This document shows, piece after piece, positions 1 through 20,711 of a stretch of 54,031 nucleotides of DNA. Within the stretch, counting starts at the first letter, position 1, and each line of letters begins with the position of its first letter. Source of the DNA: a virus; IMG/VR virus record IMGVR_UViG_3300031857_000246, positions 1 through 54,031 of that record; one strand, given 5' to 3'. The notes below the pieces were generated by a model. It made no database searches. It had not been told where the DNA came from and was given only the letters and a program-made list of their open reading frames with translations. Position numbers and translations under genes: made by a program.

Positions 1-316
1 GTGGGGAATCTTTTAACCACCCTGCAAAATTAAACCATTCAGGATTTGTTCTAATTTTTTGTAATTCATTAAAAAATGGAAACCACGTTTTAAAATCCTC
101 TAGCTCTTTGAAATAAACAACGGTGTTATGTCTCTTACGTATTTTCCAAACCTCAGACTCTAGTGACCTTGGAATCCAAATACATAGATTTGCATCAGTT
201 TCTAGTAATTCAAAAAATTTTTGTTTATACGTATCAAAACTACGTTGTGCCCATCCATTTAAGTTTTCCCTACCTAAGTCCCACAATCCGGTGACAATTG
301 TAACTTTACTATTCAT
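1..316 (-). CDS. HtrL/YibB-like glycosyltransferase-family protein, partial (3' end outside window)
   Basis: Reading the minus strand from the ATG at 314-316 gives an open frame of about 105 codons that runs off the left edge, so the C-terminus is missing. The N-terminus contains VTGLWDLGRENLNGW followed by a Tyr/Phe-rich helix and the LETDANLCIWIP segment. This is the pattern of the HtrL/YibB family, which is linked to lipopolysaccharide or capsule sugar modification and found in several large viruses. It starts 7 nt after the stop of the upstream glycosyltransferase gene and is probably co-transcribed with it. The family assignment rests on the N-terminal pattern only; the exact sugar reaction is unknown. 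Confidence 0.7.
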   Translation of the reverse strand, partial: MNSKVTIVTGLWDLGRENLNGWAQRSFDTYKQKFFELLETDANLCIWIPRSLESEVWKIRKRHNTVVYFKELEDFKTWFPFFNELQKIRTNPEWFNFAGWLKDSP

Positions 317-323
317 AATTAAA

Positions 324-1346
324 TTATTTTGTATTTCCTAAATTTAAATAAAAACCCTCAAAAGACGATACAACATAAGTTTTTTCTGGGTCAATATTTG
401 TTTTAAAATAAGTTCTCCATTTTTTTGGTAGTTCTTTTGCAATATCTGTTTTAAAGAACTGGTCATAATCAACAAATCCGTTATTTGATAAGTTTAATTT
501 TTTATAATTATTTTTTTTAAGTTGTTCCTCTACAATGTTTGTAACATCTATTGTAATTTTTTCTTGGCTATGAAGACTGCGTCCTTCATCCCGTTGTTCA
601 TTAAAATATCCATATTCAGAACTAACCAACTCAATTTTTAAGTTTGATAAATCAGTTCCATCGTAAAAATATTTTGGTATTATTGAGTAGTGTGAGTCAT
701 AACAAAAATGAAAAAATTCATAGTATTTTGTGTCGTTTTTAAATTTATTAGACTCCATTAACCATGCTTCACACTGCCACCTAGAACCTCCCCAAAAATT
801 CATAAAAGGGATGTTATTTCTAATATAGTACGCATTTACCCACCAAAAATTTCCCCAATACCAAAAATTGTGACAATGTACACCAACAATGTTGTAAGTG
901 TTTAATTTTTCAAGACATATTTTCCATTTTTCAATTAAAAAATATTCAAGCATCTCAACCCAAGAATTTTCTGATTCAATTTTAAGTTCATCAATTTCAA
1001 AGTTTACAAAATTTTTGAACTTATTAAATACTCCTTTAGTGTGGAAATAAAGAATTTTGGCGTCCTCATATTTAAAAGATAGTTCATACACTTGATTAAG
1101 TGCTAATACACCTTCTCCATAATTTTTGAACCCATGAATAAAATTTATTTTTTCATATTTAATTTTAAGAGTTTCAACAATATTAGAGTATTCTTTTTTT
1201 TCGTCCGTTAAATATATGAAAATATCGTCAGCTTTCTCATATAACCCAAACAATTCTAATTTTCTTAATTGCTCCTCAAGTTTGAGTTGCCAATCATTAA
1301 CCATGTAACAATGAGCAACAACAAAAATTTTAGAGTTGTCTATCAT
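324..1346 (-). CDS. Putative viral glycosyltransferase
   Basis: The protein (about 340 aa from the ATG at 1344-1346) begins KIFVVAHCYMVNDW. It contains the motifs ILYFHTKGV, NIVGVHCH and YWGNFWWVNAYYI, a set shared by putative glycosyltransferases of giant viruses and phages in which a family of sugar-transfer proteins carries F-H-T-K-G and G-N-F-W-W. The frame extends back to a TTG at 1364, but that start would overlap the upstream gene, whereas the ATG at 1346 lies 4 nt after its stop; I prefer the ATG. It sits in a minus-strand glycosylation operon with no gaps. Donor and acceptor cannot be told from the sequence. Confidence 0.65.
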   Translation of the reverse strand: MIDNSKIFVVAHCYMVNDWQLKLEEQLRKLELFGLYEKADDIFIYLTDEKKEYSNIVETLKIKYEKINFIHGFKNYGEGVLALNQVYELSFKYEDAKILYFHTKGVFNKFKNFVNFEIDELKIESENSWVEMLEYFLIEKWKICLEKLNTYNIVGVHCHNFWYWGNFWWVNAYYIRNNIPFMNFWGGSRWQCEAWLMESNKFKNDTKYYEFFHFCYDSHYSIIPKYFYDGTDLSNLKIELVSSEYGYFNEQRDEGRSLHSQEKITIDVTNIVEEQLKKNNYKKLNLSNNGFVDYDQFFKTDIAKELPKKWRTYFKTNIDPEKTYVVSSFEGFYLNLGNTK

Positions 1347-1350
1347 TTTT

Positions 1351-3780
1351 TTATTTTTTAACAATTATTGCAGTAATACTCCAATTAGGCCTTACTTTAA
1401 CTATTTCACAACTTTTTATATTTTCTTCTAGATATTTTGTTTCAGATTCTGTTAAATAATCAGAAAAAATTCTACCTGTTTTTTGAAACTCTTCTAACAT
1501 TTGTAAGGTCGTAGTTTTTTTAGGGTCTCCCCAATTACACCAAGCTTTTTCAGGCATCAGGGCTTCAATACTAGTATGTAAATCTTCCATCACAAATATA
1601 CCTCCACTTTTAATTGATTTAAATAAAGTTGCTAAAGTTATTTGTTGGTCGTACATCCTATGACTCCCGTCATCTAGTATTACATCAATGTCAGTATTTT
1701 CTTCTGAAAACTTTATTAGTTCTTCTTTTTTAGACTGGTCCAAAAGTTTTATACTAATCCTTTCAAAGTTATTAAATTGTCTAATTGATTCTGGGTTATT
1801 ATCTAAACCCAAAATTTCAGAATTAACAAAGTAATCGGACCAAACTTTTAATGAATTCCCGTCTAAAACACCAATCTCTACAAATTTTTTAATTTGGTCT
1901 TTTATTGGTGAAAAAGTTTTTTCATAAATCTTACTAAAGTAGTCATGTTCGTGGTGTTTATCCGTGGGATAAATTTCCGCTAATTGTGTTAACATAAATT
2001 TTGATGTATCTATTTTTATATTGAATTTATTTCGATAAATAACGTCGATAGTTCTGTATGGGGTATTACCATATGAGAATGCATGGAATATAAATTTATT
2101 CTCATTGTAATCTCTAGAATTTAAATCACCATTAGGGATGATTTTAAATTTAGTTCTATCGTCTAATCTTTCGCGTACATATTTTAAACAGGTTTGGTCA
2201 TGCCAAAGTGCGTTTTTATAATGTGGATATTCTTCACAAACATCCCACCAATCACGCATAAATTTTTTAACAAAATCTGAATTTTTAACTAAGAATACTC
2301 CAGCATTAACGATTGAGGGTCCAAAATCTTCGGTCATCAATACCTCAAAATTACCATGAATAAATTCCTCAATACGTCGATAATTGTTACAGAAAATCGC
2401 ATCAATATCTAAAAATAAAACATAATCTAAATTAGGATTTTTTTCTAACATTTCTAAAACTAGTTTAGGTTTATACCAAGTTGCGGCACGTCCCTCTAGT
2501 TTAGTTCTTATTTTTTCAGTATTTTTTTCTACAAAATAATAATAATGATTTTCTTCACAATATTTCTCATTAATAGCTTCAGTATACCTACCATATAATA
2601 CGTTATCAGTATAAAATTGACAAACACCAATTTTTAAATTGGTGTCTGCACATATTGTCGTACTTTGTTTTTTAGGGGTTTTATCTAAGACTAACCATTT
2701 TTTACCTTTAAAATCAAACATCTCACTTATTTCGTTAAGGTCTATCCCATCGACTTCGGTAGTTTCTAAATTTAAATTATTAAAATTATTTTGAACCTCC
2801 CCGTCAAATTGGACAATTAACCTACCACCTTCCTGAACTGAATTAATGTACTCATCAATTAATTTGGGGTTAGTGTTTTTAAAAATGTCAACATTTGGAA
2901 TAACTAATGTGTGAATAGAGTTTTTCCCAAAAGGACAAAATCCTCTGAAATCATAACTACTCCTCACTTGTCTTCCATAGAACTCCCAATTGTATTTATC
3001 TTTATTGTAGGCGTACCACATAGCGGTATATTCCCCATCACCATACCAAGTTTTTACAGGGGTGTGATTCCAAAAATTAACATCCGAGTCAATAATTACT
3101 TTTCGCTTCATCGGAATATTTTGGTAATAGTAGTCCAATACATCCTCAACAAAATATTGTCTTTTACCATTCGTATAATGAATAGTAAAAAATTTTTCAC
3201 CTAGAATATATTGAGTACAAAGTAAATTTGTCGTTTTAACAACAAAATCTCCATTGTTAATGAATTCAAACAAAGCTTTATCTTCTATAGTTTGGTTTGT
3301 TAAATTTTCATGATTCACTAACCCACTACATACTCTTTTTGATAAGAATAGACCAGCACCACCACCTGAATTATTACGTAATACATCAGCATTACCTAAT
3401 TCTTCTAAAACATTATCTAAAACATAATGATTCACATAAGACCCATCGTCAATTCTAAAAATATAATCAAATTCCTCATTTTTCAACACCCATCCTATTG
3501 CTTCTTTTAATCTTTCAAACATAAATGATTTAGTCTGCCCTTGGATTGGTGGATTATGGTCGTAAGTCTCAGGTGAAACACAATGTAATATCTTGTCTAC
3601 TGGGTTGTATGTAAGTTTATCATTACCTCCATCAAAAAAAATAACTTTGTGACCTAATGACTCAACTTTAGGTACCCATGTCTCTAAACAAGACATTTTT
3701 CTTGTTAATGAAGCGTCAGATATTTTAATATGATTACCATCATATTTTTTACTAGTAAATGCTAAAAAAACTATTTTCAT
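1351..3780 (-). CDS. Three-domain enzyme: GT31-like + GT34-like glycosyltransferases + SAM O-methyltransferase
   Basis: This 809-aa protein appears to fuse three enzymes. Residues 1-220 resemble beta-1,3-glycosyltransferases (GT31-like) with RIDDGSY at 109-115 as the metal-binding acidic motif. Residues about 220-375 are a linker or degenerate domain. Residues about 382-580 resemble the GMA12/MNN10 galactosyltransferase fold (GT34) with the DxD motif LFLDIDAIF (DID 458-460) and the later WHDQT. Residues about 600-809 are a class I methyltransferase of the macrocin/rhamnosyl O-methyltransferase type: EIGVLDGNSL at 635-644 binds SAM, DDGSH at 703-707 is the metal/catalytic site, and GGIFVMEDLH follows. 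The parts suggest successive addition of two sugars and methyl capping. It lies between a GT60-like gene and another glycosyltransferase. Fold calls are from motifs only; middle and C-terminal domains are the surest. Confidence 0.75.
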   Translation of the reverse strand: MKIVFLAFTSKKYDGNHIKISDASLTRKMSCLETWVPKVESLGHKVIFFDGGNDKLTYNPVDKILHCVSPETYDHNPPIQGQTKSFMFERLKEAIGWVLKNEEFDYIFRIDDGSYVNHYVLDNVLEELGNADVLRNNSGGGAGLFLSKRVCSGLVNHENLTNQTIEDKALFEFINNGDFVVKTTNLLCTQYILGEKFFTIHYTNGKRQYFVEDVLDYYYQNIPMKRKVIIDSDVNFWNHTPVKTWYGDGEYTAMWYAYNKDKYNWEFYGRQVRSSYDFRGFCPFGKNSIHTLVIPNVDIFKNTNPKLIDEYINSVQEGGRLIVQFDGEVQNNFNNLNLETTEVDGIDLNEISEMFDFKGKKWLVLDKTPKKQSTTICADTNLKIGVCQFYTDNVLYGRYTEAINEKYCEENHYYYFVEKNTEKIRTKLEGRAATWYKPKLVLEMLEKNPNLDYVLFLDIDAIFCNNYRRIEEFIHGNFEVLMTEDFGPSIVNAGVFLVKNSDFVKKFMRDWWDVCEEYPHYKNALWHDQTCLKYVRERLDDRTKFKIIPNGDLNSRDYNENKFIFHAFSYGNTPYRTIDVIYRNKFNIKIDTSKFMLTQLAEIYPTDKHHEHDYFSKIYEKTFSPIKDQIKKFVEIGVLDGNSLKVWSDYFVNSEILGLDNNPESIRQFNNFERISIKLLDQSKKEELIKFSEENTDIDVILDDGSHRMYDQQITLATLFKSIKSGGIFVMEDLHTSIEALMPEKAWCNWGDPKKTTTLQMLEEFQKTGRIFSDYLTESETKYLEENIKSCEIVKVRPNWSITAIIVKK

Positions 3781-3785
3781 AAAAA

Positions 3786-5036
3786 TTATAAATTCCCAGT
3801 GATTCGGTTACACCATCCTTTAGATTTAGAGTAAGGCCAAACAACCCAATATTTTGGTTGTTCTGCAGTTTGGAAGTCTCTCCACAATTTACAATACCCG
3901 TCAGGGTCACGCATTAGGTTATTAATTTCATTAATGTCTGCGTCTTTTCTGTATAAAGTATTATCTTTTTCATCGTGGAAAGCAACAACCCAAAATTCAT
4001 AATCTTTTTCAGGTACCTGTGAAAACCCTAAATCAATACAATGTTTGAAAATTCTTGCAAAACTATCTTCCCATTCCTGTTCAGTACTAAACGTATTTGG
4101 ATTTGGTGGATATTTTTTATCTAGTGTCCATTGTTGAACAGCTCGTTTACCAAAATGTAATCCTGCATATTTTTCATAGTCTCTTAAAGTTCTTTCAGTA
4201 CCAAAACCAAAAACACCAAATTCTTCAGGATTATATTTTTCACCATCCATCGAGAATAATTTACGATTTTTTAAATGGCACTTGTTATTTCTTTCTACCC
4301 ACTTTTTATCGTCGTCCCATTGTTTTGTTCTACCTTTACGGGTATACTCATGCCAAATAACAACTTTATGAGGGTGAAATAAATCATATCCGTGTGTATA
4401 TGCTCTTGCCGCAATTGAAATTTCTTCTCCGTGAAAATAGTATTCAGGGTCGTGTTGAACTTCTTTTGAGAACTGTCCTACTGTAAAACAAAAATGTGCG
4501 GAATAAAATCTCGCAGGGATTGGCTCGGTCATTTTTTTCCATCCAGGGATTGTCTCGGGTAAAAAGAAAACCGCACCTTCAGGAATAAATCTATCAAAAG
4601 CCATTCTCCAAGGCTCTTTAATTCTTGCGGCAGGGTCATTATCAGGGTCAAAAGACGATACATAACCCGTTAATAAAGGTTTCTTATGTCCTTTCTCTTG
4701 GAGTTGTGTAATCATTCCAATTAAGGTCTCGTCCCAGTCCTTATCAAATCTCATATGAGAATCAACCTGAAGAGTATATTCTTCATTCTTATAGACTTGT
4801 TGTATAAGATTTCTAGCCCAACAAGCACCTTGTGATTCGTTATAAGGGATATCAATAATTCTAAAACGTTTATCTTTTTTATATTTTGTAAGGTCATCAA
4901 ATCCATCATTTGGGTTGAATTGTCTAGCAATACCAAATCTTAAATTTTTTGGATTTTTTGCATTTTCAATGGCTGACTCTATGGTTGGGATTAATTGTGG
5001 GTCTCTATAAGACGCAATTTGGATAAAAATTTTCAT
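3786..5036 (-). CDS. GT60-like polypeptide N-acetylglucosaminyltransferase
   Basis: The 416-aa protein opens with IFIQIASYRDPQLIPTI and FGIARQF. It has LQVDSHMRF (D92-x-H94) as the metal-binding catalytic motif and later GEEISIAARAYTHGYD and WHEYTRKGR. These are the hallmarks of the GlcNAc glycosyltransferase family (CAZy GT60). Characterised members add GlcNAc to hydroxyproline of Skp1 in Dictyostelium or to Thr of Thr-rich mucins in Trypanosoma cruzi. Its C-terminal 130 residues are an extra region of unknown role. The next genes upstream encode Thr-run and Thr/Pro-rich virion proteins, obvious candidate acceptors. Family assignment is strong; the acceptor is inference. Confidence 0.82.
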   Translation of the reverse strand: MKIFIQIASYRDPQLIPTIESAIENAKNPKNLRFGIARQFNPNDGFDDLTKYKKDKRFRIIDIPYNESQGACWARNLIQQVYKNEEYTLQVDSHMRFDKDWDETLIGMITQLQEKGHKKPLLTGYVSSFDPDNDPAARIKEPWRMAFDRFIPEGAVFFLPETIPGWKKMTEPIPARFYSAHFCFTVGQFSKEVQHDPEYYFHGEEISIAARAYTHGYDLFHPHKVVIWHEYTRKGRTKQWDDDKKWVERNNKCHLKNRKLFSMDGEKYNPEEFGVFGFGTERTLRDYEKYAGLHFGKRAVQQWTLDKKYPPNPNTFSTEQEWEDSFARIFKHCIDLGFSQVPEKDYEFWVVAFHDEKDNTLYRKDADINEINNLMRDPDGYCKLWRDFQTAEQPKYWVVWPYSKSKGWCNRITGNL

Positions 5037-5080
5037 AAAATTATTCTTTTATGAATAAAATTAAAAACTAATTGTTAAAA

Positions 5081-5581
5081 TTAAAGACATTTTGGACATT
5101 CTTCTGAAATTGTTCCACTCACAATTTGATACTGATTTTCAGTCACTAAGAATGTGGAATAACCTGGTAAATTTTGATTTAAAACTGATTCTATATACAT
5201 ACAACAACCATCTATTGTAAGTATCATTGGTGGGGTTATTTCTTGGTAAGTTATAAAATTAAAGTAATACCCTCCACTACTATTATTTAAGAAATTTTCA
5301 CACAATTGTGGGTCACAGACCTCACAACTCTTTGCTACGGTAAAATAGTTGAATGTTGGTGGCTCCGTTGTTGTTGTGGTTGTTTCAGGTATAATTAATT
5401 GACAATTTTGACCTTGGTTTATAAAGTACAAATCGTAGGTTCCTTCGTAATTTTCAACGTCAAATGTGTAAGGAATTATATGCGAACCTAAATCAATAGA
5501 ACCACCACTTAAAGGATAAAATGTAATGTTTGCAACATCTCCTGAAAAAATTTGACTCTTTAATGTTATAACTGTTCCCAT
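5081..5581 (-). CDS. Small modular virion protein with poly-Thr linker
   Basis: The 166-aa protein has two parts. Residues 1-63 form a beta-rich module (SGDVANITFYPLSGGSID...IIPYTF...YEGTYDLYF) also found nearly intact at the N-terminus of the peptidase-fused protein at 6917-7786 and, more divergent, at 5595-6914. A Thr-run linker (PETTTTTTEPPT) follows, then a Cys-rich C-terminal domain (Cys pairs CEVCDPQLC, GCC and the terminal CPKC) with no recognised homolog. There is no signal peptide. An ATTTATAA-type element lies about 12 nt before the start. Position and repeated modules suggest a fibre or decoration protein; the function is unknown. Confidence 0.6.
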   Translation of the reverse strand: MGTVITLKSQIFSGDVANITFYPLSGGSIDLGSHIIPYTFDVENYEGTYDLYFINQGQNCQLIIPETTTTTTEPPTFNYFTVAKSCEVCDPQLCENFLNNSSGGYYFNFITYQEITPPMILTIDGCCMYIESVLNQNLPGYSTFLVTENQYQIVSGTISEECPKCL

Positions 5582-5594
5582 TTTACTTTATAAA

Positions 5595-6914
5595 TTATTT
5601 ACTAATTATTACACCTGTTGCAATATAATTAGACCCATCTCTTATTGTTATATTCCCACTATCCAAAACTTGAGGGGACCTACTAGCGGTTTCATCGTAT
5701 ATCAATATTCCATCCTCGTCTAATTGTGACGTGACACTTTCACCTGTGACCATATTTACTATAATTCTAACCACATCTTTATCCGTAACCATAAATGAAC
5801 CACTACGACTAACATTCGTATTAACAACTTCTAACCCATTTTTTAATATTCTATAAGTATTTAACTCGGAACCTCCAGCGTCGTCAAATGACCAATTAAA
5901 ATTATCTGTGGGTGGTAATGTTTCCATTGTTGCCGTAGGTGTAGGAGTTAATTCAGGTAATGTTGATGATGGTGTCAAAGTTGGAGTTTCTGTTAAGGTA
6001 GGCGTATTGGTAGGTGTTAAAGTTGGTGTACTAGTTGGAGTTTCAGTTAAAGTAGGTGTGTTTGTTGGCGTCTCCGTTAATGTTGGTGTGTTAGTAGGTG
6101 TACTAGTTGGGGTTTCAGTTAAAGTAGGGGTATTTGTTGGAGTATTAGTAGGTGTACTAGTTGGGGTTAGTGTGGGGGTCTCAGTTAATGTCTGAGTCAA
6201 AGTAGGTGTATTGGTTGGAGTTGAGGAATTTGTTAAAGTTAGTGTAGGTGTCGGTGGTGGGGTAAAGATGGTGTCGGCAGTAAAATTAAAACCTATCTCA
6301 ATATTCTGAGGTGAGAATTGTAAATTTGTAAATTCTGAAGTATCATTTAAATTATAATAATCGTAATCGACTACAATAAGTGTACTTCCTGATAAATCGC
6401 CAGCTTGTATTGTAACTCCCGAACTAATAATTAGACTATCACCAGATAATGTGCCTAACACATGTTGGAATGATACTGATAAATCAAAATCTAGTGGTTC
6501 AGTTGTTACTAGGGTATATTCGGCATTTACAGACCCAGGGCTAATAGTTGAGGTAAAGATTACTTCAGTATTCTGAGGTACAAAATTTAAGTCATAACTT
6601 ATATCGCAAATATTAAGTATTGTTGTGGTAGTTGTAGTAATTGGTTCAAAAGTAGTTGTGGTTGTTACAGGAATAAAAGTGGTTGTTGTAGTTGTTGATG
6701 GTAAGACATTAATAATACAGGTTTTATAAAATCTAATATAGTAAAAAGTATATTTACCATAAACCGATAAATTAGGTTCAATATCGTCACCATAAAAGGT
6801 AAAGGGGACTACTTGTTCACCCAAATCATAAACAGACCCGTTTAAAGACTCAAACGTAACTTGTGCAGTTTGTCCACTATAGTTTGTATCGAAAAATTCA
6901 ACGTATTGTGACAT
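5595..6914 (-). CDS. Virion/adhesin protein with mucin-like Thr and Thr/Pro tracts
   Basis: This 439-aa protein is a chain of modules: an N-terminal copy of the shared virion module (SGQTAQVTFESLNGSVYDLG), three poly-Thr runs separated by short Pro-containing spacers (residues about 76-97), and a beta-sandwich-like domain of about 115 residues. A Thr/Pro/Ser tract of about 105 residues made of repeated TPTxTxT units follows, then a C-terminal domain (about 340-439). The 115-residue domain has a clear paralog in the 1290-aa adhesin at 11589-15461 (shared DFDLSV, LGTxSGDS, NDTSEF). The tracts use mixed Thr codons, so they are kept by selection on protein composition rather than simple DNA slippage. 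It is probably a tail-fibre or capsid-surface component and a likely O-glycosylation target. Confidence 0.65.
   Translation of the reverse strand: MSQYVEFFDTNYSGQTAQVTFESLNGSVYDLGEQVVPFTFYGDDIEPNLSVYGKYTFYYIRFYKTCIINVLPSTTTTTTFIPVTTTTTFEPITTTTTTILNICDISYDLNFVPQNTEVIFTSTISPGSVNAEYTLVTTEPLDFDLSVSFQHVLGTLSGDSLIISSGVTIQAGDLSGSTLIVVDYDYYNLNDTSEFTNLQFSPQNIEIGFNFTADTIFTPPPTPTLTLTNSSTPTNTPTLTQTLTETPTLTPTSTPTNTPTNTPTLTETPTSTPTNTPTLTETPTNTPTLTETPTSTPTLTPTNTPTLTETPTLTPSSTLPELTPTPTATMETLPPTDNFNWSFDDAGGSELNTYRILKNGLEVVNTNVSRSGSFMVTDKDVVRIIVNMVTGESVTSQLDEDGILIYDETASRSPQVLDSGNITIRDGSNYIATGVIISK
5938..6258 (-). repeat. Thr/Pro-coding degenerate tandem repeat
   Basis: On the plus strand this reads as repeated GTTGG(A/T/G)GT blocks; on the coding strand it encodes TPTLTETPT-like units. 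Repeats are imperfect at the DNA level but regular at the protein level. It is internal to the gene at 5595-6914. Confidence 0.85.
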
Positions 6915-6916
6915 AG

Positions 6917-7786
6917 TTAAAAATTATTTTCTGTGGCCAAACAAATTTCACCATTCATTTTTATTAATCTCTCCATATCTGTAAATGAGATATAGGCATT
7001 ACCTTGTAATCCCCATCCCCTTCCCCAACTATTCTTTATTCTAAATAGTCTTTTTCTAGTATCAATTCCATTAATAACATAGGCGTGTCCACCAACAATA
7101 GGTCCTCCAATACGAATATTACCATTTCTATCAGGATAAAACATATTTCTATACCAATATGTCCCAGCAACTACGGGCCCAACATTTAATACGGTGTTAA
7201 TTAGTGTGTTAATGTCAAATGCCCAATAGTAGTTTTTAATTCGGTTTGTTTGTTGTAAATACTTGGCACCAGCCCTAACAGATGTACCATCATAATTTTC
7301 TCCAGGCCACTCGTCAATCTTTTGAGACTCCTTATAAATTAATGTTGGGTGTACAATAGGTGGAGTACCTCCGTGTTTTACGGGACCATCCTCAATCCAA
7401 TGTGCCCAAGAATATCCAACACATTGTGGTGTAATTCCTTGGTTTCCCCACCATTCATTTTGTTCCCAGTACCTAGATATGATTGGACTCTTATTAATTG
7501 TTATTTTATCTTTAATTAAGTAATTCTTATCTCTATTATCAATTGATATTCCCCTACCTAAACCAAACACTAACTCTGTAAGTCCTGATGGTGAAACAAA
7601 AACCTCACAACTTTGACTTTGAGCTGTAAAATTAAGGTTATATGTTCCTTCGTAGTAATCCGTAACATAAACATAGGGGATTATTTGTGAACCAATATCA
7701 ATACTACCACCCGTTAATGGGTAGAATGTGATATTAGCAACATCACCTGAAAAATTATCACTTTTTAAAATTACTACTGACGGCAT
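6917..7786 (-). CDS. Virion module fused to papain-like (C1) cysteine peptidase
   Basis: Residues 1-64 are the shared virion module (SGDVANITFYPLTGGSID...YEGTYNLNF). Residues about 100-289 are a papain-fold peptidase. NQGITPQCVGYSW places the oxyanion Gln at Q116 and the nucleophile at C122, in the spacing of bacterial and viral C1 homologs of the NQG-x3-x-C type. GGHAYVINGID supplies H234, and IKNSWGRGWG supplies N252. All catalytic residues are therefore present. There is no signal peptide or propeptide, and the structural module replaces the propeptide region. It may process virion proteins or attack host surface proteins from the particle. It lies 2 nt from the adhesin gene at 5595, and an AATAAATAT element (7792-7800) precedes the start. 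Confidence 0.8.
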   Translation of the reverse strand: MPSVVILKSDNFSGDVANITFYPLTGGSIDIGSQIIPYVYVTDYYEGTYNLNFTAQSQSCEVFVSPSGLTELVFGLGRGISIDNRDKNYLIKDKITINKSPIISRYWEQNEWWGNQGITPQCVGYSWAHWIEDGPVKHGGTPPIVHPTLIYKESQKIDEWPGENYDGTSVRAGAKYLQQTNRIKNYYWAFDINTLINTVLNVGPVVAGTYWYRNMFYPDRNGNIRIGGPIVGGHAYVINGIDTRKRLFRIKNSWGRGWGLQGNAYISFTDMERLIKMNGEICLATENNF

Positions 7787-7813
7787 TTAAAAATAAATAT
7801 CCAAATAAATGAT

Positions 7814-8443
7814 TTATACCCTTTGGAAATACTTATATATTCTTTGACTTAATCTAATTCTTGGGTCATTTTCATTTCTACCTAGGGTTTTGTAGGGGAG
7901 GATAAACCCAAAACTTAAAAACACTCTTCGTGATTTAAATTCATTAGTCCAATGTTTGTAAAGAGATGCTTCAAAACAATATAAATCGGTTTCAGATATA
8001 TTAAGTACGTCTTCTCCGATGAAAATTTGATAGTCTTCGGATAAGACACTAATATTACATTTATAATTAATATATCCGTCTATTGATGCATCATAATGGG
8101 GGGTTATCTTACCACCTGAGTCCATATCAACAACTTGTAAAAATATATTGTCTGCTGGGATTTCTAAAGTTTCAGATAATCTGCCAATAATGGACTCAAT
8201 AAAATCAGGAACTTTAATTTTTAAAACCTGACTGACAGACTGAAAGTTTGTGATATAGTTTGTGTAACTATTATTTGAAATATCTATAATAGTAGATTTA
8301 CCATTTAAATCTTTTGTGATTTCAGATAAGTGGTGATTTGGATTACCTTTATCCGATTCTAATGAATTTACCCATTCTAAAATTTTTATAACTTCTTCTT
8401 TAGTTATAAAATTTCGTATCACCTTATGATTTTCAATCCCCAT
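7814..8443 (-). CDS. 2-oxoglutarate/Fe(II) dioxygenase-like protein
   Basis: The 209-aa protein has a double-stranded beta-helix signature: TPHYD (H116-x-D118) as the first two iron ligands, YKHWTNE with H164 as the distal ligand, and RRVFLSFGF (R172/R173) for 2-oxoglutarate. This matches phage and prolyl-hydroxylase-like dioxygenases. The ATG at 8441-8443 lies inside the upstream gene (25 nt overlap), so translation is probably coupled. It sits among Pro/Thr-rich virion proteins and near a GT60-like enzyme, so hydroxylation of prolines in those proteins is an attractive but unproven role. Nucleobase or small-molecule oxidation is an alternative. Confidence 0.68.
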   Translation of the reverse strand: MGIENHKVIRNFITKEEVIKILEWVNSLESDKGNPNHHLSEITKDLNGKSTIIDISNNSYTNYITNFQSVSQVLKIKVPDFIESIIGRLSETLEIPADNIFLQVVDMDSGGKITPHYDASIDGYINYKCNISVLSEDYQIFIGEDVLNISETDLYCFEASLYKHWTNEFKSRRVFLSFGFILPYKTLGRNENDPRIRLSQRIYKYFQRV

Positions 8444-8667
8444 TTGTTAAGAAATTCTTTTGGTCCAATTTCTAACTCCATTATAGATAAATTTTTTTTA
8501 TTGTAAATCTTCATCATTTGTTCTTCAGACCCAGCCATTGTACAATACCAATGAGTCGCGGGTTCTTCTCCTGTTGGTGAACAAGGTATTTTCATTACAT
8601 TTTTATTTATCCAAGCTTCTCTAACTTGTTCTACCTTATCGTTGTCTGTTAAAATGTTAATTCTCAT
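8419..8667 (-). CDS. Small hypothetical protein
   Basis: An 82-aa soluble protein, not recognised. It has a predicted helix at 12-25 and a Trp/Cys-containing stretch (ATHWYCTMAGSEEQM) and ends in KWGLKIIR. The pattern resembles a small alpha/beta domain. It overlaps the start of the 2OG oxygenase gene by 25 nt, implying translational coupling and perhaps a shared role. The 29-nt gap before its ATG holds no clear promoter. Confidence 0.5.
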   Translation of the reverse strand: MRINILTDNDKVEQVREAWINKNVMKIPCSPTGEEPATHWYCTMAGSEEQMMKIYNKKNLSIMELEIGPKEFLNKWGLKIIR

Positions 8668-8696
8668 AATATTATTTAATTGTTTTAAATTAATTA

Positions 8697-9347
8697 TTAG
8701 TCCTTTATGATTATTTCAATTGGTGTGTAAAATAATGAATCTAAAGCATTAGTTAAATCAGTCACTCCTTTATTACTTAACACAATAAAACTATCAGGAT
8801 TATTAATATTCCCTAATGAAACAAAAGAAATTATAAATTCGTCAATAGATTCTATATATTTTGATTGTGTGTTTACAATTGTATTATTTCTTGGGAATGT
8901 GTCTACAGATATTGGGTTAGTCCCCCCAGTATAGTAGCTTCCAGGAGAAACCTTCCCCCAATTAATTTCAAATCCCAAACTATTTTCTAACACTGAAACA
9001 CAAAGATTACCTGACGAAGTAATTTCTGAGTAATCTCCCCAATAACTTGGGGTCTCCCCCGTGGCAATAAATACACATCCAGTTTGATTTATTACACCAC
9101 TTTGAACATAGGCAATATTACTAAAATCGTCATTTGAAACATAGTCTGTAATTGTATAAGTTTCACCTATGATAAATTTTCCATATAACTGACTTGTGTC
9201 ATTTGCAACTAAAATAGGTGTTTGAGTTAGTAATGCTCTATAAGTTCTATTATTTGTAATCCCTGTTACAGTTATATTACCATTAATTGTAAGGTCACCA
9301 ACTATAGTCTGACCTGATAAATTATCTATTATGTATTTTGTTGCCAT
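8697..9347 (-). CDS. Putative tail-fibre/virion structural protein
   Basis: This 216-aa protein starts with LSGQTIVGDLTINGNITVTG, a beta-strand repeat typical of fibre proteins in phages of Bacteroidota and cyanophages. It continues with KFIIGETYTITDYVSNDDF and CVFIATGETPS, a domain that recurs in large phage structural proteins. The C-terminal 90 residues are unassigned. The gene begins 2 nt after the beta-solenoid fibre gene ends, consistent with one fibre operon. No enzymatic residues are evident. Confidence 0.55.
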   Translation of the reverse strand: MATKYIIDNLSGQTIVGDLTINGNITVTGITNNRTYRALLTQTPILVANDTSQLYGKFIIGETYTITDYVSNDDFSNIAYVQSGVINQTGCVFIATGETPSYWGDYSEITSSGNLCVSVLENSLGFEINWGKVSPGSYYTGGTNPISVDTFPRNNTIVNTQSKYIESIDEFIISFVSLGNINNPDSFIVLSNKGVTDLTNALDSLFYTPIEIIIKD

Positions 9348-9349
9348 TT

Positions 9350-11551
9350 TTATTCTGTTATGTTTGTTATATTTAGGACATCATTTGAGTCGTAGTATGA
9401 TAATCTTTGTCCGCCACCTGCCCTTGTAAAGATTTCGCAATTATAAAATCCGTAGACGTGAGTTGATTCTGAAAAATCAATAGATATTACACTATTACAT
9501 ATTCTATTCATTTGGAAATAATCTACAACAATGTTATTAGTAAAATTATCTCCAATAGTATTATCATAAAAATATTCTCCGATGTTATTATCATAGAAAT
9601 TATTACCAATCACATTTCCTCTATATGAACCTCCGCCAAAACCAAAACCATCTAGAACTTCGTTACTATAAAAATTAGTACCTATTGTGTTATATGAAAA
9701 TGAACCATAACAATTATTAAATTCAAAATAATCTCCGATATTGTTACTGATTGTTTGTCCACTCATATTATTCACGAAGAAACTATAACCAACATTATTA
9801 TAACCAAATTCGGCAAATGTTTGGTTTGCTTTAAAATTTGTTTTAATATGATTACTCCAAAAATCCCCCTGAATGTTATTACCCTTGAATTCATTCATAA
9901 TTTGATTGTTTTCAAAGGTAAGATTTAAATTGTCTGAATCTCCGATTGTGTTACCTTCAAACCCATTTAATATTGAGTTTTTATATATGTTTGAATATAT
10001 ATTATTATTATAAAAATCATTTAAAATATTGTTACTTTGGAAGTTATATCTAATTGTATTAGTTGCACAATCACTTCCAATACTATTCCCTACAAAATTG
10101 TATGACCCTATATTTGTACTAATACCAATCGTATTACCCCCAAAAACTTGACCGATATTATTTTCATAAAATTGGTTATATACAGTATTATTATTATAAC
10201 CATTACCAATCAAATTACGATAATAGTTTGAATAGCTTTTATTGTTGTTATAACCATTGCCGATGTCGTTATTATAAAAGTCATTATAGATTTTATTATT
10301 TGCAAATTGGTTACCTATTTCATTATTTTGAAAATCTCCATTAGTCCAAGTGTTATCTTCAAAGTTATTCCCAATATTGTTTCTATAAAAAGAACCACCA
10401 ATTAAGACATTATAGTTAAAATCACTACCAATTCTGTTATTATTAAAATTCGCAGTTATATAATTATTATTGAAGTTTTCCCCGATGATGTTTCCATCAA
10501 AATCATCATTTGTTGAGTTGTTATAAAAACTATCACCTATTTGATTATTGTCACAATCGTCATTAAATGTGTTATTATATGACCTATTTCCTATTGTGTT
10601 GTTTGTGAATGAACCACTAATAAAAACGTTGTTTGCTAAAAGAAAATCTCCTGAGCCAAGCTCAATATATATATTTGAGTGGTTACCAATATAATTGTTA
10701 ACTGCGGTTGTCTCATTAAATGTAGTATATTCGAAAACCTCATTCACCCTTATATTAGGTTGATAGTAACTCATAACACCATCATCATAGGCCGTGTAAT
10801 ATGATGAATTACTAGTCTCATTTATTGTAACACCTGAAATAGTTGCCAAAGAATTACTATTAACTAATATGACTTCAAAAATTCGAGGGTTTAGATTACC
10901 TATCGCAACAAACGAACCTGTTGAAAAATTTGAACTAAATGTTGTTCCTGTATTACCGTATAATACTCCTGTGTTCCCTGTTATACCACTTATTCCAACG
11001 AGTCCACTAAGTGGTTCAGATTCATAATACGAATATCCAATATACCTTTTAAATAATATATTTCTGTGGTCATAATCAGTTCTATTACTAAAATTATCAA
11101 TTCTTTCAGTGATTCTACCTTTCGCGGGACTATTGCTAATTTCAGTTATGTTCCAAGAAATGTCGTATGTTATTTTATCTTTAGGGTGTAGTGTTGAGTG
11201 TACTGTCGGTGAGAATCCTGTTATTGAAGTTGCTAATAATAAAATTGGTTCGGTGTCACCTGTCATATAGTTATCCGAAAATATAGGACTACGAAGATTA
11301 TCGTAGTTTGGTTGGTCATAACAAGTTTGGAAATCTGTCATTAAGTAAAATTGACCAGGTGTTAACGTCCCTCCGGTGTATAAAGAATACAACTCATTAT
11401 AAGTGATTTCAGTGTAAGTTGTTATACCAGAAAATAAACTTTCTTTTGTTATTTTATATGTTTCAGTTTGAGCTGAATTATTTAATATAAGCCAAGTATT
11501 ATCTGTTGACCCTGTAAATTCTGGTAATTGCGAAATTTTTATATTAGCCAT
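9350..11551 (-). CDS. Asn-rich beta-solenoid tail fibre/adhesin
   Basis: The 733-aa protein opens with the fibre N-terminal motif IKISQLPEFTGSTDNTWLIL, used by many phages of this type to attach fibres. It passes through a globular region and then, from about residue 282 to 700, consists of about 40 short repeats of roughly ten residues with the pattern NNxIGxxFxxN. Regularly spaced Ile/Phe and Asn ladders indicate a beta-helix or pentapeptide-like solenoid. The last 35 residues form a separate cap. Hydrophobic and Asn positions are conserved while the others vary. It is likely a rigid shaft or polysaccharide-binding fibre. A TATAAATAC/GTATTTATA element lies 14 nt upstream of the start. Confidence 0.75.
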   Translation of the reverse strand: MANIKISQLPEFTGSTDNTWLILNNSAQTETYKITKESLFSGITTYTEITYNELYSLYTGGTLTPGQFYLMTDFQTCYDQPNYDNLRSPIFSDNYMTGDTEPILLLATSITGFSPTVHSTLHPKDKITYDISWNITEISNSPAKGRITERIDNFSNRTDYDHRNILFKRYIGYSYYESEPLSGLVGISGITGNTGVLYGNTGTTFSSNFSTGSFVAIGNLNPRIFEVILVNSNSLATISGVTINETSNSSYYTAYDDGVMSYYQPNIRVNEVFEYTTFNETTAVNNYIGNHSNIYIELGSGDFLLANNVFISGSFTNNTIGNRSYNNTFNDDCDNNQIGDSFYNNSTNDDFDGNIIGENFNNNYITANFNNNRIGSDFNYNVLIGGSFYRNNIGNNFEDNTWTNGDFQNNEIGNQFANNKIYNDFYNNDIGNGYNNNKSYSNYYRNLIGNGYNNNTVYNQFYENNIGQVFGGNTIGISTNIGSYNFVGNSIGSDCATNTIRYNFQSNNILNDFYNNNIYSNIYKNSILNGFEGNTIGDSDNLNLTFENNQIMNEFKGNNIQGDFWSNHIKTNFKANQTFAEFGYNNVGYSFFVNNMSGQTISNNIGDYFEFNNCYGSFSYNTIGTNFYSNEVLDGFGFGGGSYRGNVIGNNFYDNNIGEYFYDNTIGDNFTNNIVVDYFQMNRICNSVISIDFSESTHVYGFYNCEIFTRAGGGQRLSYYDSNDVLNITNITE
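9480..10700 (-). repeat. About 40 degenerate 30-bp repeats coding a beta-solenoid
   Basis: This coding repeat has a period of about 30 bp (10 aa) with consensus protein NNxIGxxFxxN. On the plus strand it shows as recurrent ATTATT(A/C)CCAAT-like and AAAATTATT-like blocks. DNA identity between units is moderate, so the array is old or selected at protein level. Confidence 0.8.
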
Positions 11552-11564
11552 TTTTAATTTTATC

Positions 11565-11573
11565 TATAAATAC
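11565..11573 (-). promoter_or_regulatory. Candidate late promoter element (GTATTTATA)
   Basis: Coding-strand GTATTTATA ends 13 nt before the ATG of the solenoid fibre gene, in the only gap between the 1290-aa adhesin gene and this gene. It matches the recurrent RTATTTATA motif of this window. Confidence 0.45.
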
Positions 11574-11588
11574 TTTTATTTTTTTCAT

Positions 11589-14500
11589 TTAACAAGGTCC
11601 TGTGAATGTTAATGGGAATTGACAATCAAACGCAACCCCACCACCTGCACCTGTAAATACATAAGTATATGTGCCATCCGATGAAACAATTCCTACAAAA
11701 CTAGTTGACCCATTATTATCTGTTATAGTATCATTTACTTGTATTTGTAAAGTTTCTGAAGTTTGTGTTAGTACAAGTTGATTTGTATTAATAGTTGTAC
11801 CGCCATTCCATAAGGTTGGAATCACAATATTACGTTGACAATTTGGTGTTAAAGTTAGTGTTGGTGTTGGGGATGGTGTTGGAGTTGGTGAACTTGGTGG
11901 TGCTGATGGCCAAGATTTAACGTTTGTCAGTAAAACCTGTATTTTTGCGGTCTGTGATGATGATACCGTTTCAAACCAAGAAGCCCCATTGTTTGTTGTT
12001 GCCCACCCAAAGGTGTCAGGAACCGCATTCGGGTAAGCTGGTGACAAGAAGTTTAAAACTGGGTATAAGTTAGTAGATGCTGGCGCCGCTTCAACACCGC
12101 TAGGTCTTTTTCTAACGTAGAACATAGTCATACCACCAATTACATTTGGTGAATTTCCCATATAAGTCGGAGTACCAGTGTGATATGTCGTCGTATATCC
12201 AAGTTGGACTTGACCATTTTGATTCCAAGACTCTGCAACAAATCCTACAACGTAATAACCTGTAGGTATCGTGAGAGGGGTACTAGCGTCGATTGTTCCA
12301 AAAGTCGTAGTATCATATCCAGTTGCAACTGCTCTTGTGTTTACTTGTTCGTCAGTATTACCAATTTTAACCACACCATCAACATTACCAAAAATATCAT
12401 TATATTCTTGTTGCGTAATAATTACCCAATCATTATCTGTTGCATTTTGATAACTTACTAAACTTGTTGTTAATTGGTCTTCTAACGCATCATAATTTGG
12501 GTCGACTACATACGATGGGGCTAAATTAGCTCCAGAATCTAAAAATACTGATACTGTTGTTGATTGTTCATTTGATAAAAAAGATGCACCATACACATTC
12601 CACCCTGTAAACATATAACCTGGTGATGGTACTGCCTGTATATTATATGAGACATTCTTTTCAACACTAACTTCAGTTTGTTCAGTATAAGTTACACCAT
12701 CAAATATTATTGATAAACCACCACTTAATGGTTGGATGTACAACGTTAGGGGTACTAATGGTACTACTGAAGTTGTTGGTGTCATAGTCTGTGTTGGTGT
12801 TGGTGTGGATGTAGGTGTTGAGGACTGGGTGAGTGTCGGTGTTAATGTTGGAGTAGATGTGGGTGTAGGTGTTGGTGTTGGTGTGGATGTGAGTGTAGGT
12901 GTTGGTGTTTGACTAGATGTAAGTGTGGGTGTAGGTGTTGGTAAACAAAGGTCTAATTCTGTGATTATATAACTACCATTTTCTGCAATAATAAAATCAT
13001 CGTTTTCAGTTAGAAGATATTGATTACAAGGGTTAAGATTAAAGATTGTTTCCGAAGATAGTGAGATTACTAAATCAACCCAATATGGTGACCATTTAAC
13101 ATCAACAAATTCTGACGTATCATTCAATATATTATAATCCTCTTGACGTATTACAATAGTTTCACCACTTAATAAACCTTTTGGTACCACAACACCTGAT
13201 TCAATATTTATACTATCTCCACTAATAGTCCCTAAAATATGTGTGAATGTAACCGACAAATCAAAATCTAAAGTGTTACTTAATTGTAGAGAATACACTG
13301 CTTCAATTGAACCTGGATATAGATTAGCAATTAATATTACCTCAGCATCTAATGGTATATTATAAAGTTCATAGTTTACATCGCAAGGTATAATTGTAGT
13401 TGTTGTTGTAGTTACAGGTATCGTAGTTGTTGTTGTAGTTACAGGTATCGTGGTGGTTGTGGTTGTAATTTCATAAACTATTGCTGACAAATCACACTCA
13501 GGGACAATAACCTCACAATCGGGACAATCCCAATCAAACAAATTATACCTACCCTTATTTAATTTAAAATTATGTTTAACTTCGTCAGACGTTAAAGGTT
13601 TTACATAGTAATTAAATTGTGATATACCCCCATCAAACGTACCTGCAAAGTATTTTTCTAATACTATATTTGTCGATAGTCCTGATAATGTAGTTCCACT
13701 TAAAACTGAATCAGGGAATAATTCAGGGTCTTGTTGGTATTGATAACCTAAATACGATGATGTTGTTGTCGTTGTTGAGTAATCTATTGTTGTAGTCGTG
13801 GTAACATCACCTGAAATTGGACATTCAATAAATGTTAAATTTTCTCTCAGTCCTTGTGTACCACCACCCCAAGATATGTTAAACGGAACCCCTATTTGTT
13901 TTTCCCTCTCAACGTTCAAAGCTCTAGGTATGACCTCTTCAAAATTTTCAAATGTGTGAAATTTACGTCCATTTACGTAGATTTTTAATCTACCTAATCT
14001 ATAATCTTTTTCTTTTAACCACTTATCATTTAATTCAACAACCTCTCTACCATACGGAGTTTCAATTGTTGTTACATTATATGTTGTAGTTGTTGATGTG
14101 TATGTTGTGGTATAATAGTGAGTATATGGTGGTTGAATTAATGTGACAGATTGATTGTAAGTGGATGCGGTATAAACAAAATTAGTAATGTCCCCTAATC
14201 CGCCATACCAATACAAATGACATTCGTCCATTGCACGATATCTCTCAAATACAACATCGACTTGTACCCAATGTTCAAATTTAATATAGTCAGTATTTTC
14301 ACAAAAATAATGTATTCCTTTTGGTGTACAATACTCTTGGACCGTACAACCTGATGTATAAGTTTTTGTTCCTGTACATGCATCTACGGCACATTCATCG
14401 GTTAACCTTAAAACCCTAACACATATTTTTGGATTACCCGGGTCACCACTAAATTTAACCACAAAATTGTTTGAACATGAGTCTCCACTTGGGTTAAGTT

Positions 14501-15461
14501 CAGGTGCAGTTATTTCTACCGAACTACATGGTGTAGTTTCAGTCACATATCTTAATGGTGGGTATACTGGACCACAATGTGAAAAAGTATTACCTGTATC
14601 TGAACATCCACAAGTACTTAAACAATCTAATTTTTCAGTAACACGAGTATAAGCTGAAAATCCTGATGGTGAACCTGAAGCATAATGATAAAATTTATTC
14701 TCAGCCCTTGCTCCCATATAGAAGAACATACCTGAATTTTCAGGGTAAACGTCATTTAAAGTTGTATCGCCAGTAGGTACAAAATAATCATCCCATATTC
14801 TAGGTCTTAATAATAATTCAGCACTCCATCCGTGATTTGGTCTTTCAGGTAACGTTTCATAATCGTACCCATATAACTTATAGAACCCTTGATAAAATCC
14901 TCCGTATAATTCATGGTAAACCCCTACATCAGTTTGTTTGGAAACAATCGAATAGTTGTCATTTTTTTCAATACCTGAAAATCTAATATTTGGTGGTTGG
15001 GTATATCCTGTTACTTGGAAAAATTTAGTTCTTCTGTCAAAAGATAACCTATCGAATTTTGTAAAATCGTTAATCCCTTGGGTTATGAATGCTGTCTCAC
15101 CAGTCATTTCTTTTACAAGACCATTATCAATACCTGTAAGACCTATGTCACATAAACTTGTAAACCCTGAATAACAAGACAAATCTAGATTATCTGGATT
15201 ATAGTAGTTTGACGAAACTAAAATATTAAACGGATTATATGTGTTATATTCTAAAACGTATAATTCCGAATTGTCGGGATTATTTAAATCAATCTTAATT
15301 GGTAAGACGTTCCCGTCCTCATTACCTATAATATAAGGTGAGAAAATAACTTCTTCTTTATAGTCCCTTTCATCTGACGTTAAACAGAAATCCATTATTT
15401 CAGATTTGTTTAACAAATACCATTTTGGGAAATTATATTGGTTGATATTTTGGTACGCCAT
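11589..15461 (-). CDS. 1290-residue modular adhesin with lectin-like, poly-Thr and Thr/Pro modules
   Basis: This is the largest protein in the window. An N-terminal region is followed (about 205-570) by a concanavalin/LamG-like domain: GWSAELLLRPRIWD, FYMGARAEN, RLGRLKIYVNGRKFHTFENF and a late GGISQFNYYVKPLTSDE. Poly-Thr spacers include three tandem TTTTTTIPV units. Next comes a 115-residue domain paralogous to one in the protein at 5595-6914, a Thr/Pro tract, a bacterial surface-repeat-like domain (GYMFTGWNVYGASF), and C-terminal domains ending VAFDCQFPLTFTGPC. Cys-rich loops lie around 290-390. It is probably a receptor-binding tail fibre or large baseplate adhesin. The start ATG at 15459-15461 is preceded by a GTATTTATC element. 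Confidence 0.72.
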   Translation of the reverse strand: MAYQNINQYNFPKWYLLNKSEIMDFCLTSDERDYKEEVIFSPYIIGNEDGNVLPIKIDLNNPDNSELYVLEYNTYNPFNILVSSNYYNPDNLDLSCYSGFTSLCDIGLTGIDNGLVKEMTGETAFITQGINDFTKFDRLSFDRRTKFFQVTGYTQPPNIRFSGIEKNDNYSIVSKQTDVGVYHELYGGFYQGFYKLYGYDYETLPERPNHGWSAELLLRPRIWDDYFVPTGDTTLNDVYPENSGMFFYMGARAENKFYHYASGSPSGFSAYTRVTEKLDCLSTCGCSDTGNTFSHCGPVYPPLRYVTETTPCSSVEITAPELNPSGDSCSNNFVVKFSGDPGNPKICVRVLRLTDECAVDACTGTKTYTSGCTVQEYCTPKGIHYFCENTDYIKFEHWVQVDVVFERYRAMDECHLYWYGGLGDITNFVYTASTYNQSVTLIQPPYTHYYTTTYTSTTTTYNVTTIETPYGREVVELNDKWLKEKDYRLGRLKIYVNGRKFHTFENFEEVIPRALNVEREKQIGVPFNISWGGGTQGLRENLTFIECPISGDVTTTTTIDYSTTTTTSSYLGYQYQQDPELFPDSVLSGTTLSGLSTNIVLEKYFAGTFDGGISQFNYYVKPLTSDEVKHNFKLNKGRYNLFDWDCPDCEVIVPECDLSAIVYEITTTTTTIPVTTTTTTIPVTTTTTTIIPCDVNYELYNIPLDAEVILIANLYPGSIEAVYSLQLSNTLDFDLSVTFTHILGTISGDSINIESGVVVPKGLLSGETIVIRQEDYNILNDTSEFVDVKWSPYWVDLVISLSSETIFNLNPCNQYLLTENDDFIIAENGSYIITELDLCLPTPTPTLTSSQTPTPTLTSTPTPTPTPTSTPTLTPTLTQSSTPTSTPTPTQTMTPTTSVVPLVPLTLYIQPLSGGLSIIFDGVTYTEQTEVSVEKNVSYNIQAVPSPGYMFTGWNVYGASFLSNEQSTTVSVFLDSGANLAPSYVVDPNYDALEDQLTTSLVSYQNATDNDWVIITQQEYNDIFGNVDGVVKIGNTDEQVNTRAVATGYDTTTFGTIDASTPLTIPTGYYVVGFVAESWNQNGQVQLGYTTTYHTGTPTYMGNSPNVIGGMTMFYVRKRPSGVEAAPASTNLYPVLNFLSPAYPNAVPDTFGWATTNNGASWFETVSSSQTAKIQVLLTNVKSWPSAPPSSPTPTPSPTPTLTLTPNCQRNIVIPTLWNGGTTINTNQLVLTQTSETLQIQVNDTITDNNGSTSFVGIVSSDGTYTYVFTGAGGGVAFDCQFPLTFTGPC
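12774..12945 (-). repeat. Thr/Pro-coding degenerate repeat
   Basis: Repeated GTTGGTGT/GTGGATGT blocks on the plus strand encode a TPTPTxTPTLT tract in the middle of the 1290-aa adhesin. Mixed codons argue against recent slippage. Confidence 0.8.
13391..13470 (-). repeat. 27-bp tandem repeat coding TTTTTTIPV (about 2.7 copies)
   Basis: Two nearly identical 27-bp units and a partial third unit with different Thr codons encode TTTTTTIPV. The first two copies are almost identical in DNA, suggesting recent expansion. Located in the adhesin gene. Confidence 0.85.
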
Positions 15462-18185: not shown

Positions 18186-19406
18186 ATGACAGAAAAGATT
18201 AATGTTTTAGTAGCCCCATCAGACAAAACAGGAGTAGGTAAATTCCGCTCTGTAGACCCTCACATCGCATTACAACGACTTTATCCTGAAGATTTTCATG
18301 TTGATATTGTTTACGATTTTAATTTTGCGGATATCAATTTTTGGAAAAAGTATCAGATAGTACATTTCCATCGTAGTATTGGTCACGATTTTGACCAAGC
18401 GGTCAATCTAATTAAAATGCTTAAAAGTTTAGGTATTATAATGGTTATGGATTTAGATGATTATTGGTTACCAACTAAAGAACATCCACTTCATTCTTTG
18501 ATTTTACAAAACAAAATGAATGAAAAAATAGTTAATAATCTAAAAGTTGCTGACTATGTGATAACTACAACTGAAATGTTTGCTAATGAAATTAGAAAAA
18601 TTAACAAAAATGTTGTTGTTATACCAAATTCTATAGACCCTAGTGAACCACAATTTCAATATGAAAAAACTGAAAGTGATTTATTACGTATTGGTTGGTT
18701 AGGAGGTTCTTCACATCTACATGATTTAATGTTGTTAGATGGTACATTTAATAAATTACGTTCAGATAGAAACAAGTTTCAAACATATTTGGCAGGATTT
18801 GACACTAGGGGTACAGTCACAGAAATTAATCGTGATAATGGACAACAAACACAACGTCCAATTAAACCTCATGAGACTGTTTGGTATCAGTATGAAAAAA
18901 TAATGACTGACAATTATCATGGACTAGACACAAATTATGTAAATTTTCTAATGAAATTTAAGGAAGAACCATATCCCAATATGGACAATCAACAATACGT
19001 TAGAGTTTGGACTAGACCTGTTAATGCATACGCCGCTAACTATAAAAGATTTGATGTTTCGTTGGCACCAATTAAAAATCATATCTTTAATAGAGTTAAA
19101 TCACAATTAAAGGTTATTGAGGCGGGATTTCATAAAAAAGCATTGATTGCGTCAAATGTGGGTCCGTACACAATCGATTTGAAACATTGTTTAGATAAAG
19201 GTAATTTTGTATCGGGTGCTAATGCTTTTTTAGTTGATGAGAATAAGAACCATTCAGACTGGTCAAAATACATTAAAAAATTAATCGATAATCCAAACTT
19301 GGTTACCGATTTGGGAGAATCTTTGTATGAAACAGTTAAAGATACTTACCATATTGATACAACAACTAAATTTAGAAGTGAATTTTATAAATCTTTAGTA
19401 AAATGA
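18186..19406 (+). CDS. GT4-like (GT-B fold) glycosyltransferase
   Basis: A 406-aa glycosyltransferase. The N-terminal half has INVLVAPSDKTGVGKFR, the IVHFHRS strand end, VMDLDDYW and the linker VVVIPNSIDP. The C-terminal half has LRIGWLGGSSHLHDL and the nucleotide-sugar-binding region QLKVIEAGFHKKALIASNVGPY followed by FLVDEN. This is the usual two-Rossmann layout of family 4 enzymes. Its stop overlaps the next ATG by 4 nt (ATGA), so it is coupled to the exonuclease gene. The sugar and acceptor are unknown. Confidence 0.8.
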   Translation: MTEKINVLVAPSDKTGVGKFRSVDPHIALQRLYPEDFHVDIVYDFNFADINFWKKYQIVHFHRSIGHDFDQAVNLIKMLKSLGIIMVMDLDDYWLPTKEHPLHSLILQNKMNEKIVNNLKVADYVITTTEMFANEIRKINKNVVVIPNSIDPSEPQFQYEKTESDLLRIGWLGGSSHLHDLMLLDGTFNKLRSDRNKFQTYLAGFDTRGTVTEINRDNGQQTQRPIKPHETVWYQYEKIMTDNYHGLDTNYVNFLMKFKEEPYPNMDNQQYVRVWTRPVNAYAANYKRFDVSLAPIKNHIFNRVKSQLKVIEAGFHKKALIASNVGPYTIDLKHCLDKGNFVSGANAFLVDENKNHSDWSKYIKKLIDNPNLVTDLGESLYETVKDTYHIDTTTKFRSEFYKSLVK

Positions 19407-20101: not shown

Positions 20102-20102
20102 T

Positions 20103-20693: not shown

Positions 20694-20711
20694 AAATATA
20701 AAATATTAGTC

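Follow-up and report, generated by a model that had tools for sequence, protein, structure and literature searches.

The window analyzed here is a whole virus record of 54,031 bases (IMG/VR record IMGVR_UViG_3300031857_000246), in which the head genes of a phage are present. On its minus strand, at positions 3786-5036, it encodes a 416-amino acid (aa) GT60-family polypeptide glycosyltransferase (PF11397), the proposed initiating enzyme of a glycosylation system, next to a run of genes whose products carry threonine/proline (Thr/Pro) tracts. The recurrence of GT60 and tract genes together in other records suggests that some phages build a mucin-like coat of their own. Mucin-type O-glycosylation is usually regarded as eukaryotic; a phage version, if true, would show a way to make mucin-like proteins in the absence of a Golgi apparatus. 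It would also be a source of small enzymes for the engineering of glycans and would give models of the phage particle an extra layer for shielding or adhesion. One enzyme and one peptide would be enough for a direct test. The genes of the proposed system occupy the left part of the window, on the minus strand, and a recheck of the program-made open reading frames (ORFs) returned the coordinates given by a first-pass annotation of this DNA, which had proposed a mucin-type system acting on the phage's own adhesins.

The product of 3786-5036, described as GT60-like in the first-pass annotation, matched PF11397 in a profile search with an E-value of 1.6e-72 (245 bits, against a curated cut-off of 21) and phrog_24687, labeled 'glycosyltransferase', in a PHROG search with an E-value of 1e-168. 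Phage GT60s have thus been catalogued earlier, under the label carried by the latter family. Residues D92-S93-H94, the HGEE motif at 202-205 and H229 were invariant across an alignment of 30 phage GT60s. The replacement of DxD by DxH is a mark of families GT27 and GT60, classed together as enzymes that O-glycosylate Ser/Thr of polypeptides (PMC7185993), and both the alignment and a GT-A, GT27-like structural model place DxH instead of DxD in the GT-A fold of the window protein. The AlphaFold2 model (mean predicted local distance difference test score, pLDDT, of 91.5) retrieved polypeptide GalNAc-transferases in all of the top 29 rows of a VIA-align comparison, with Z-scores of 18.7-22.1 and root-mean-square deviations of 3.4-4.1 Å across 260-284 residues, the next entry being B4GALNT1 at Z 17.1; the best Foldseek rows were also polypeptide GalNAc-transferases. 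The final ~85 residues of the model form a further part that these structural matches barely cover. By sequence, solved structures yielded no match, either by phmmer (E up to 1) or by profile (E up to 10). Judged by its profile match, 3786-5036 is a true GT60, and its predicted fold is best matched by those of the mucin-initiating polypeptide GalNAc-transferases (GT27), bearing out the earlier assignment.

Tract counts confirmed Thr tracts in all five of the proteins in which they had been noticed. Upstream of GT60, across a gap of 44 nucleotides (nt) as first reported, lies a gene for a 166-aa protein with a TTTTTT tract (5081-5581, minus strand). On the same strand are the genes for two proposed acceptors displaying poly-Thr and T-P-T-x tracts, one of 439 aa (5595-6914) with 146 tract residues (70 Thr, 28 Pro) and one of 1290 aa (11589-15461) with 157 (72 Thr, 27 Pro); the two have a domain in common (46% over 115 aa). 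Elsewhere, a 520-aa protein (34650-36212, plus strand) harbors a short poly-Thr tract of 25 tract residues, and a 784-aa protein (45495-47849, minus strand), encoded between the portal gene and the next head-region gene, carries T-P-T-x tracts amounting to 229 residues (102 Thr, 44 Pro). All four Thr codons are used across the window tracts taken together and the window as a whole has a GC content of 0.313, the tracts one of 0.37-0.44, so that neither a DNA repeat nor base composition explains them. The tracts are alternating T-P-T-x chains: across GT60 loci, tract threonines are followed by Thr two residues on in 79% and by Pro one residue on in 43% of cases.

Gene place suggests that the tract proteins of the window are virion proteins. 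The label 'adhesins' proved too narrow, as 45495-47849 sits among head genes. This gene is found at the same place in 3 of 57 relatives and is lacking in three other relatives with 94-96% identical terminases, and so looks like a recent gain. Beside the tract genes, 6917-7786 (minus strand) encodes a papain-like peptidase (phrog_16701, E 2.5e-57; Pfam PF00112 below its cut-off), to which the N-terminal 64 residues of 5081-5581 are 61% identical; from this shared N-terminus, the protease may be carried by the particle on an anchor common to both proteins.

A scan of viral contigs yielded 59 GT60 loci, reduced to 30 by clustering at 90% identity. Tract genes were concentrated upstream of GT60, at 13/30 of positions -1, 8/29 of positions -2 and 6/28 of positions -3, compared to 0/30, 2/30 and 3/30 at positions +1, +2 and +3, and to 21 of 380 genes located more than three genes away (p 3.8e-8 for position -1 versus these distant genes). 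With the tract definition used here, 3 of 821 random viral genes were tract genes, and 39 of 943 genes around terminases. Nine of the 13 tract genes at position -1 share the strand of GT60 and four lie on the opposite one, with gaps of 19-108 nt. Altogether, 24 of the 30 loci had a tract gene, 22 of them within three genes of GT60. Thr/Ser/Pro-rich tracts, a hallmark by which a mucin-type system may be recognized, are thus physically linked to the enzyme.

Co-occurrence was also scored in viral records. Those with GT60 represented 44 of the 59 loci, after exclusion of one duplicate and of 14 records shorter than 40 kb; tract-chosen records of at least 40 kb numbered 38, from 80 listed of 120 stretches and with one repeat record merged; random and terminase-chosen records numbered 27 of 80 listed loci and 16 of 80 loci, respectively. 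GT60 was present in 15/38 tract-chosen long records versus 1/27 random long records (p 0.0007). Conversely, a strict tract pattern was found in 35/44 GT60 records versus 0/27 random records, one of the GT60 records (G114) also matching the backward control pattern 15 times, such that simple repeat accounts for some of its signal. Because kinship could yield this co-occurrence, sets chosen by other genes were used. Among 50 records chosen by a 2-oxoglutarate (2OG) oxygenase gene (of 53 of at least 40 kb, the three left out being close relatives of the window), tracts were found in 20/21 records with GT60 versus 16/29 without (p 0.0016). Merging this set at 95% identity gave 15/15 versus 4/11 (p 0.0005), with the qualification that merging pools fragments, helping large groups to show both traits, and that kinship among clusters partly remains. 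The co-occurrence for which the first-pass annotation had asked in related genomes was thus found in related phages, and also in an unrelated cultured lineage.

This second lineage consists of jumbo phages. In a phage collection, only XacN1, RAS14 and CM1 matched the window GT60 (tblastn, E up to 1e-5); CM1 was left out of the tract comparison. The GT60s of Xanthomonas phage XacN1 (ORF334) and Stenotrophomonas phage RAS14 are 49% and 44% identical to that of the window, and both of these cultured phages encode, beside the baseplate wedge gene, a giant protein with a Thr/Pro tract near its C-terminal end. The two giant proteins are 56% identical and are therefore not independent. Within stretches of ~43 kb each, tract genes were found in 0/9 XacN1 relatives without GT60, hand-picked from 63 records with the baseplate gene; their lack of GT60 rests on the same tblastn search. 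Eight of the nine encode a giant protein that can be aligned with the XacN1 one; beside the baseplate gene of SCTP-2, no such giant protein was found. The homologue in PA5oct of the XacN1 tract protein carries an annotation of detection by mass spectrometry. At least two glycoproteins and no visible tail fibers have been reported for XacN1; that paper reports the glycoproteins without naming them, and its main text does not mention ORF325, the tract protein (PMC5852040).

Directly downstream of GT60, 1351-3780 (minus strand) encodes a fusion of a GT34/DUF273-like and a methyltransferase-like part, the proposed extension and capping enzyme. Residues 406-474 matched PF05637 (E 4.8e-13), residues 634-757 matched Methyltransf_24 and Methyltransf_31 below their cut-offs, the protein matched the methyltransferase family phrog_21658 (E 2.4e-21), and its N-terminal part had no Pfam match. 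Because of the latter result, the glycosyltransferase-glycosyltransferase-methyltransferase architecture originally ascribed to this protein is only partly shown: the middle and C-terminal assignments stand, and that of a first glycosyltransferase is without a Pfam match. Two further sugar genes had been proposed in the same minus-strand run. One, 2-316, truncated at the window end, is HtrL_YibB-like (PF09612, E 2.1e-08) and of a family that recurs beside GT60 in relatives; the other, 324-1364, encodes a 346-aa protein with neither a Pfam nor a PHROG match, and a sugar-related role for it would be a guess.

Family scans, which took 77/89 downstream, 43/52 upstream and 98/103 tract-adjacent proteins, revealed a varied cassette at positions +1 to +3 of viral GT60 genes, made up of further GT60 (7), Methyltransf_24 (6), HtrL_YibB (6), FkbM methyltransferase (4), GT2 (4), carbamoyltransferase (3), PLOD-type glycosyltransferase (3), GT10 (3), CmcI-type (3), GT25 (2), sulfotransferase (1) and UDP-galactopyranose mutase (1) genes. 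In XacN1, RAS14 and the bacterium Jiulongibacter sediminis, the next gene after GT60 encodes a carbamoyltransferase; in the window, 1351-3780 holds that place. On the basis of their family matches, the genes of the block could plausibly initiate, extend and methyl-cap glycans, as first suggested.

We propose that, in the host cytoplasm, GT60 would start the glycans with one sugar, most likely alpha-GlcNAc donated by UDP-GlcNAc, on the threonines of long T-P-T-x tracts, where Thr occupies roughly every second position, in fiber and decoration proteins of the particle, and that enzymes encoded just downstream would extend the chains and methylate or otherwise cap them in a manner that varies from phage to phage. 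The resulting layer may serve in shielding or in glycan-dependent adhesion. Given its family and genomic linkage, we consider it likely that GT60 glycosylates the tract threonines of phage proteins. Our confidence in a dense, phage-specific mucin coat is lower. Only tentatively do we put forward the joint claim that true mucins are made by a widespread group of tailed phages, with GT60-started O-glycans on tens to at least 100 alternating threonines of head and tail proteins and with an exchangeable cassette of methyl-, carbamoyl-, fucosyl-, sulfo- and other transferases defining a coat specific to each phage.

Several observations weigh against this proposal. In the terminase-chosen set, the association was not significant (tracts in 5/6 records with GT60 versus 5/10 without, p 0.22), although it ran in the same direction in these 16 records only. 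The strict tract pattern was missing from 9/44 GT60 records and from one random record with two GT60 genes, and 6/30 GT60 loci had no tract gene. The records are fragments, between which kinship was incompletely removed. Tracts are commoner than GT60, 23/38 tract-chosen long records showing no GT60, and their composition is alike with and without it; GT60 is thus not the sole possible partner of the tracts, or the tracts have a use of their own. Furthermore, GT60 accounted for only 2 of the 98 scanned genes adjoining tract genes in tract-chosen loci. This rarity, together with the occurrence of same-composition tracts in records without GT60, is what may be expected if the genes merely share a neighborhood, GT60 and tract genes belonging to a fast-changing fiber/glycan module, with the tracts being flexible linkers that carry no modification and GT60 acting on another virion protein. 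We nevertheless regard such an arrangement as unlikely, since the GT60 family and the GT27-like fold suggest that the acceptor is Thr within mucin-like sequence, the association is likewise seen among records selected by a different gene, and the tract of the unrelated jumbo phage lineage is an added C-terminal end that relatives without GT60 lack.

In bacterial genomes, 186 GT60 relatives were confirmed and the best 80 were kept. Tract genes lay directly before GT60 in 4/76 cases and made up 12/1054 genes overall, indicating that, as far as these genomes go, it is chiefly in phages that GT60 and tract genes are linked. In cultured J. sediminis (locus L426, 7945-15148), a second GT60, a TPT-rich protein, GT60, a carbamoyltransferase and an FkbM/HtrL protein are encoded adjacently, the TPT-rich gene (262 aa) being on the opposite side of GT60 from the carbamoyltransferase. 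Given this matching set, transfer of the system between phages and bacteria may occur. Phages carry glycosyltransferases that alter host surface polymers, and this precedent, like the chromosomal GT60 relatives, would suit an enzyme acting on the host by changing a surface protein or glycan, for instance a receptor altered to exclude other phages; adjacency to tract genes would, however, be unexpected of such an enzyme, and the substrates of GT60 and of the folds closest to it are polypeptides, making a host target quite improbable in our view.

Glycosylation of tract threonines, the reading we prefer, has partial counterparts in known systems. Eukaryotic mucin GT60s belong to the same Pfam family and add alpha-GlcNAc as the first sugar to Thr acceptors in mucin-like proteins (PMC7504415, PMC6939170); they work in the secretory pathway, whereas the window GT60 is a phage gene product, presumably cytoplasmic, with its own downstream cassette. 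GT27 polypeptide GalNAc-transferases have the solved folds closest to the window model and the DxH motif in common with it, but constitute another CAZy family, and are ~11-16% identical to it in structural alignments; the window protein drew no Pfam GT27 match. Phage-encoded glycosyltransferases modify particle proteins in mycobacteriophages Che8, Corndog and Myrna, the targets being capsid and tail tube proteins, with no GT60/Thr-tract link mentioned in the accessible portions of the two papers (PMC12363180, PMC12691614). XacN1 and RAS14 resemble the window in combining GT60 with a nearby giant protein with a Thr/Pro tail, and differ from it in lineage and in having a carbamoyltransferase, not a GT34/methyltransferase fusion, after GT60. 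A search of titles and abstract beginnings in the open-licence literature returned nothing on phage GT60 with Thr tracts. Phage-encoded virion glycosylation is thus known, and its GT60/Thr-tract version appears unreported.

Gnt1 of the Skp1 pathway is also a GT60 and acts in a cytoplasmic pathway, in which it is followed by a bifunctional glycosyltransferase (PMC6939170); it needs hydroxyproline, while phage GT60s are generally without a matching oxygenase. The candidate for such a role in the window, 7814-8443 (minus strand), encodes a 2OG oxygenase-like protein whose link to the system is not supported. It had no Pfam or PHROG match; an HxD...H...R motif (metal site plus arginine for 2OG) is invariant in 14 members of its family, and its fold matched AlkB-type proteins up to Z 13.8 and prolyl 4-hydroxylases up to Z 13.1. 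The family was found in 2/44 GT60 records, fragments included, and in 1/41 control records, that one (G040) being a close window relative with GT60. In the loci of its relatives, tract genes represent 75 of 795 genes and occur in 41 of 80 loci. A Skp1-like scheme, with hydroxylation of tract prolines by the 2OG enzyme followed by addition of GlcNAc to them by GT60, could draw on the acceptor of Gnt1, on the prolyl hydroxylases among the structural matches and on the frequent company of tract genes, but is very improbable, as the gene is in so few GT60 records (this 2OG family alone having been searched), AlkB-type folds match equally well, and the tract encoded immediately next to GT60 is poly-Thr with no Pro. 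Prolyl hydroxylation was accordingly rejected as a general part of the system; from the mucin-type scheme originally proposed, this step falls away, while the GT60 itself, its GT27-like predicted fold, the tracts, their co-occurrence and their adjacency are retained. Separately, the 2OG gene overlaps an 82-aa gene (7814-8667, minus strand), and a similar-sized gene overlaps likewise in three of four relatives compared.

The head genes of the window comprise those for a terminase (49704-51461), a portal protein (47852-49666) and a major head protein (39610-41472). The terminase is distant kin of many cultured myovirus terminases (best identity 29% or less), and no tRNA genes were found in the window. 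Between the tract genes, 9350-11551 (minus strand) encodes a 733-aa protein without a PHROG match, with repeated N-x-I-G-N/F-x-x-N motifs and, by eye, a possible beta-helix. Finally, a second cluster with glycosyltransferase-like genes extends over 18186-29799 on the plus strand, with a GT4-like gene at 18186-19406 (match below cut-off) and GT2-type genes at 21368-22879 and 28951-29799.

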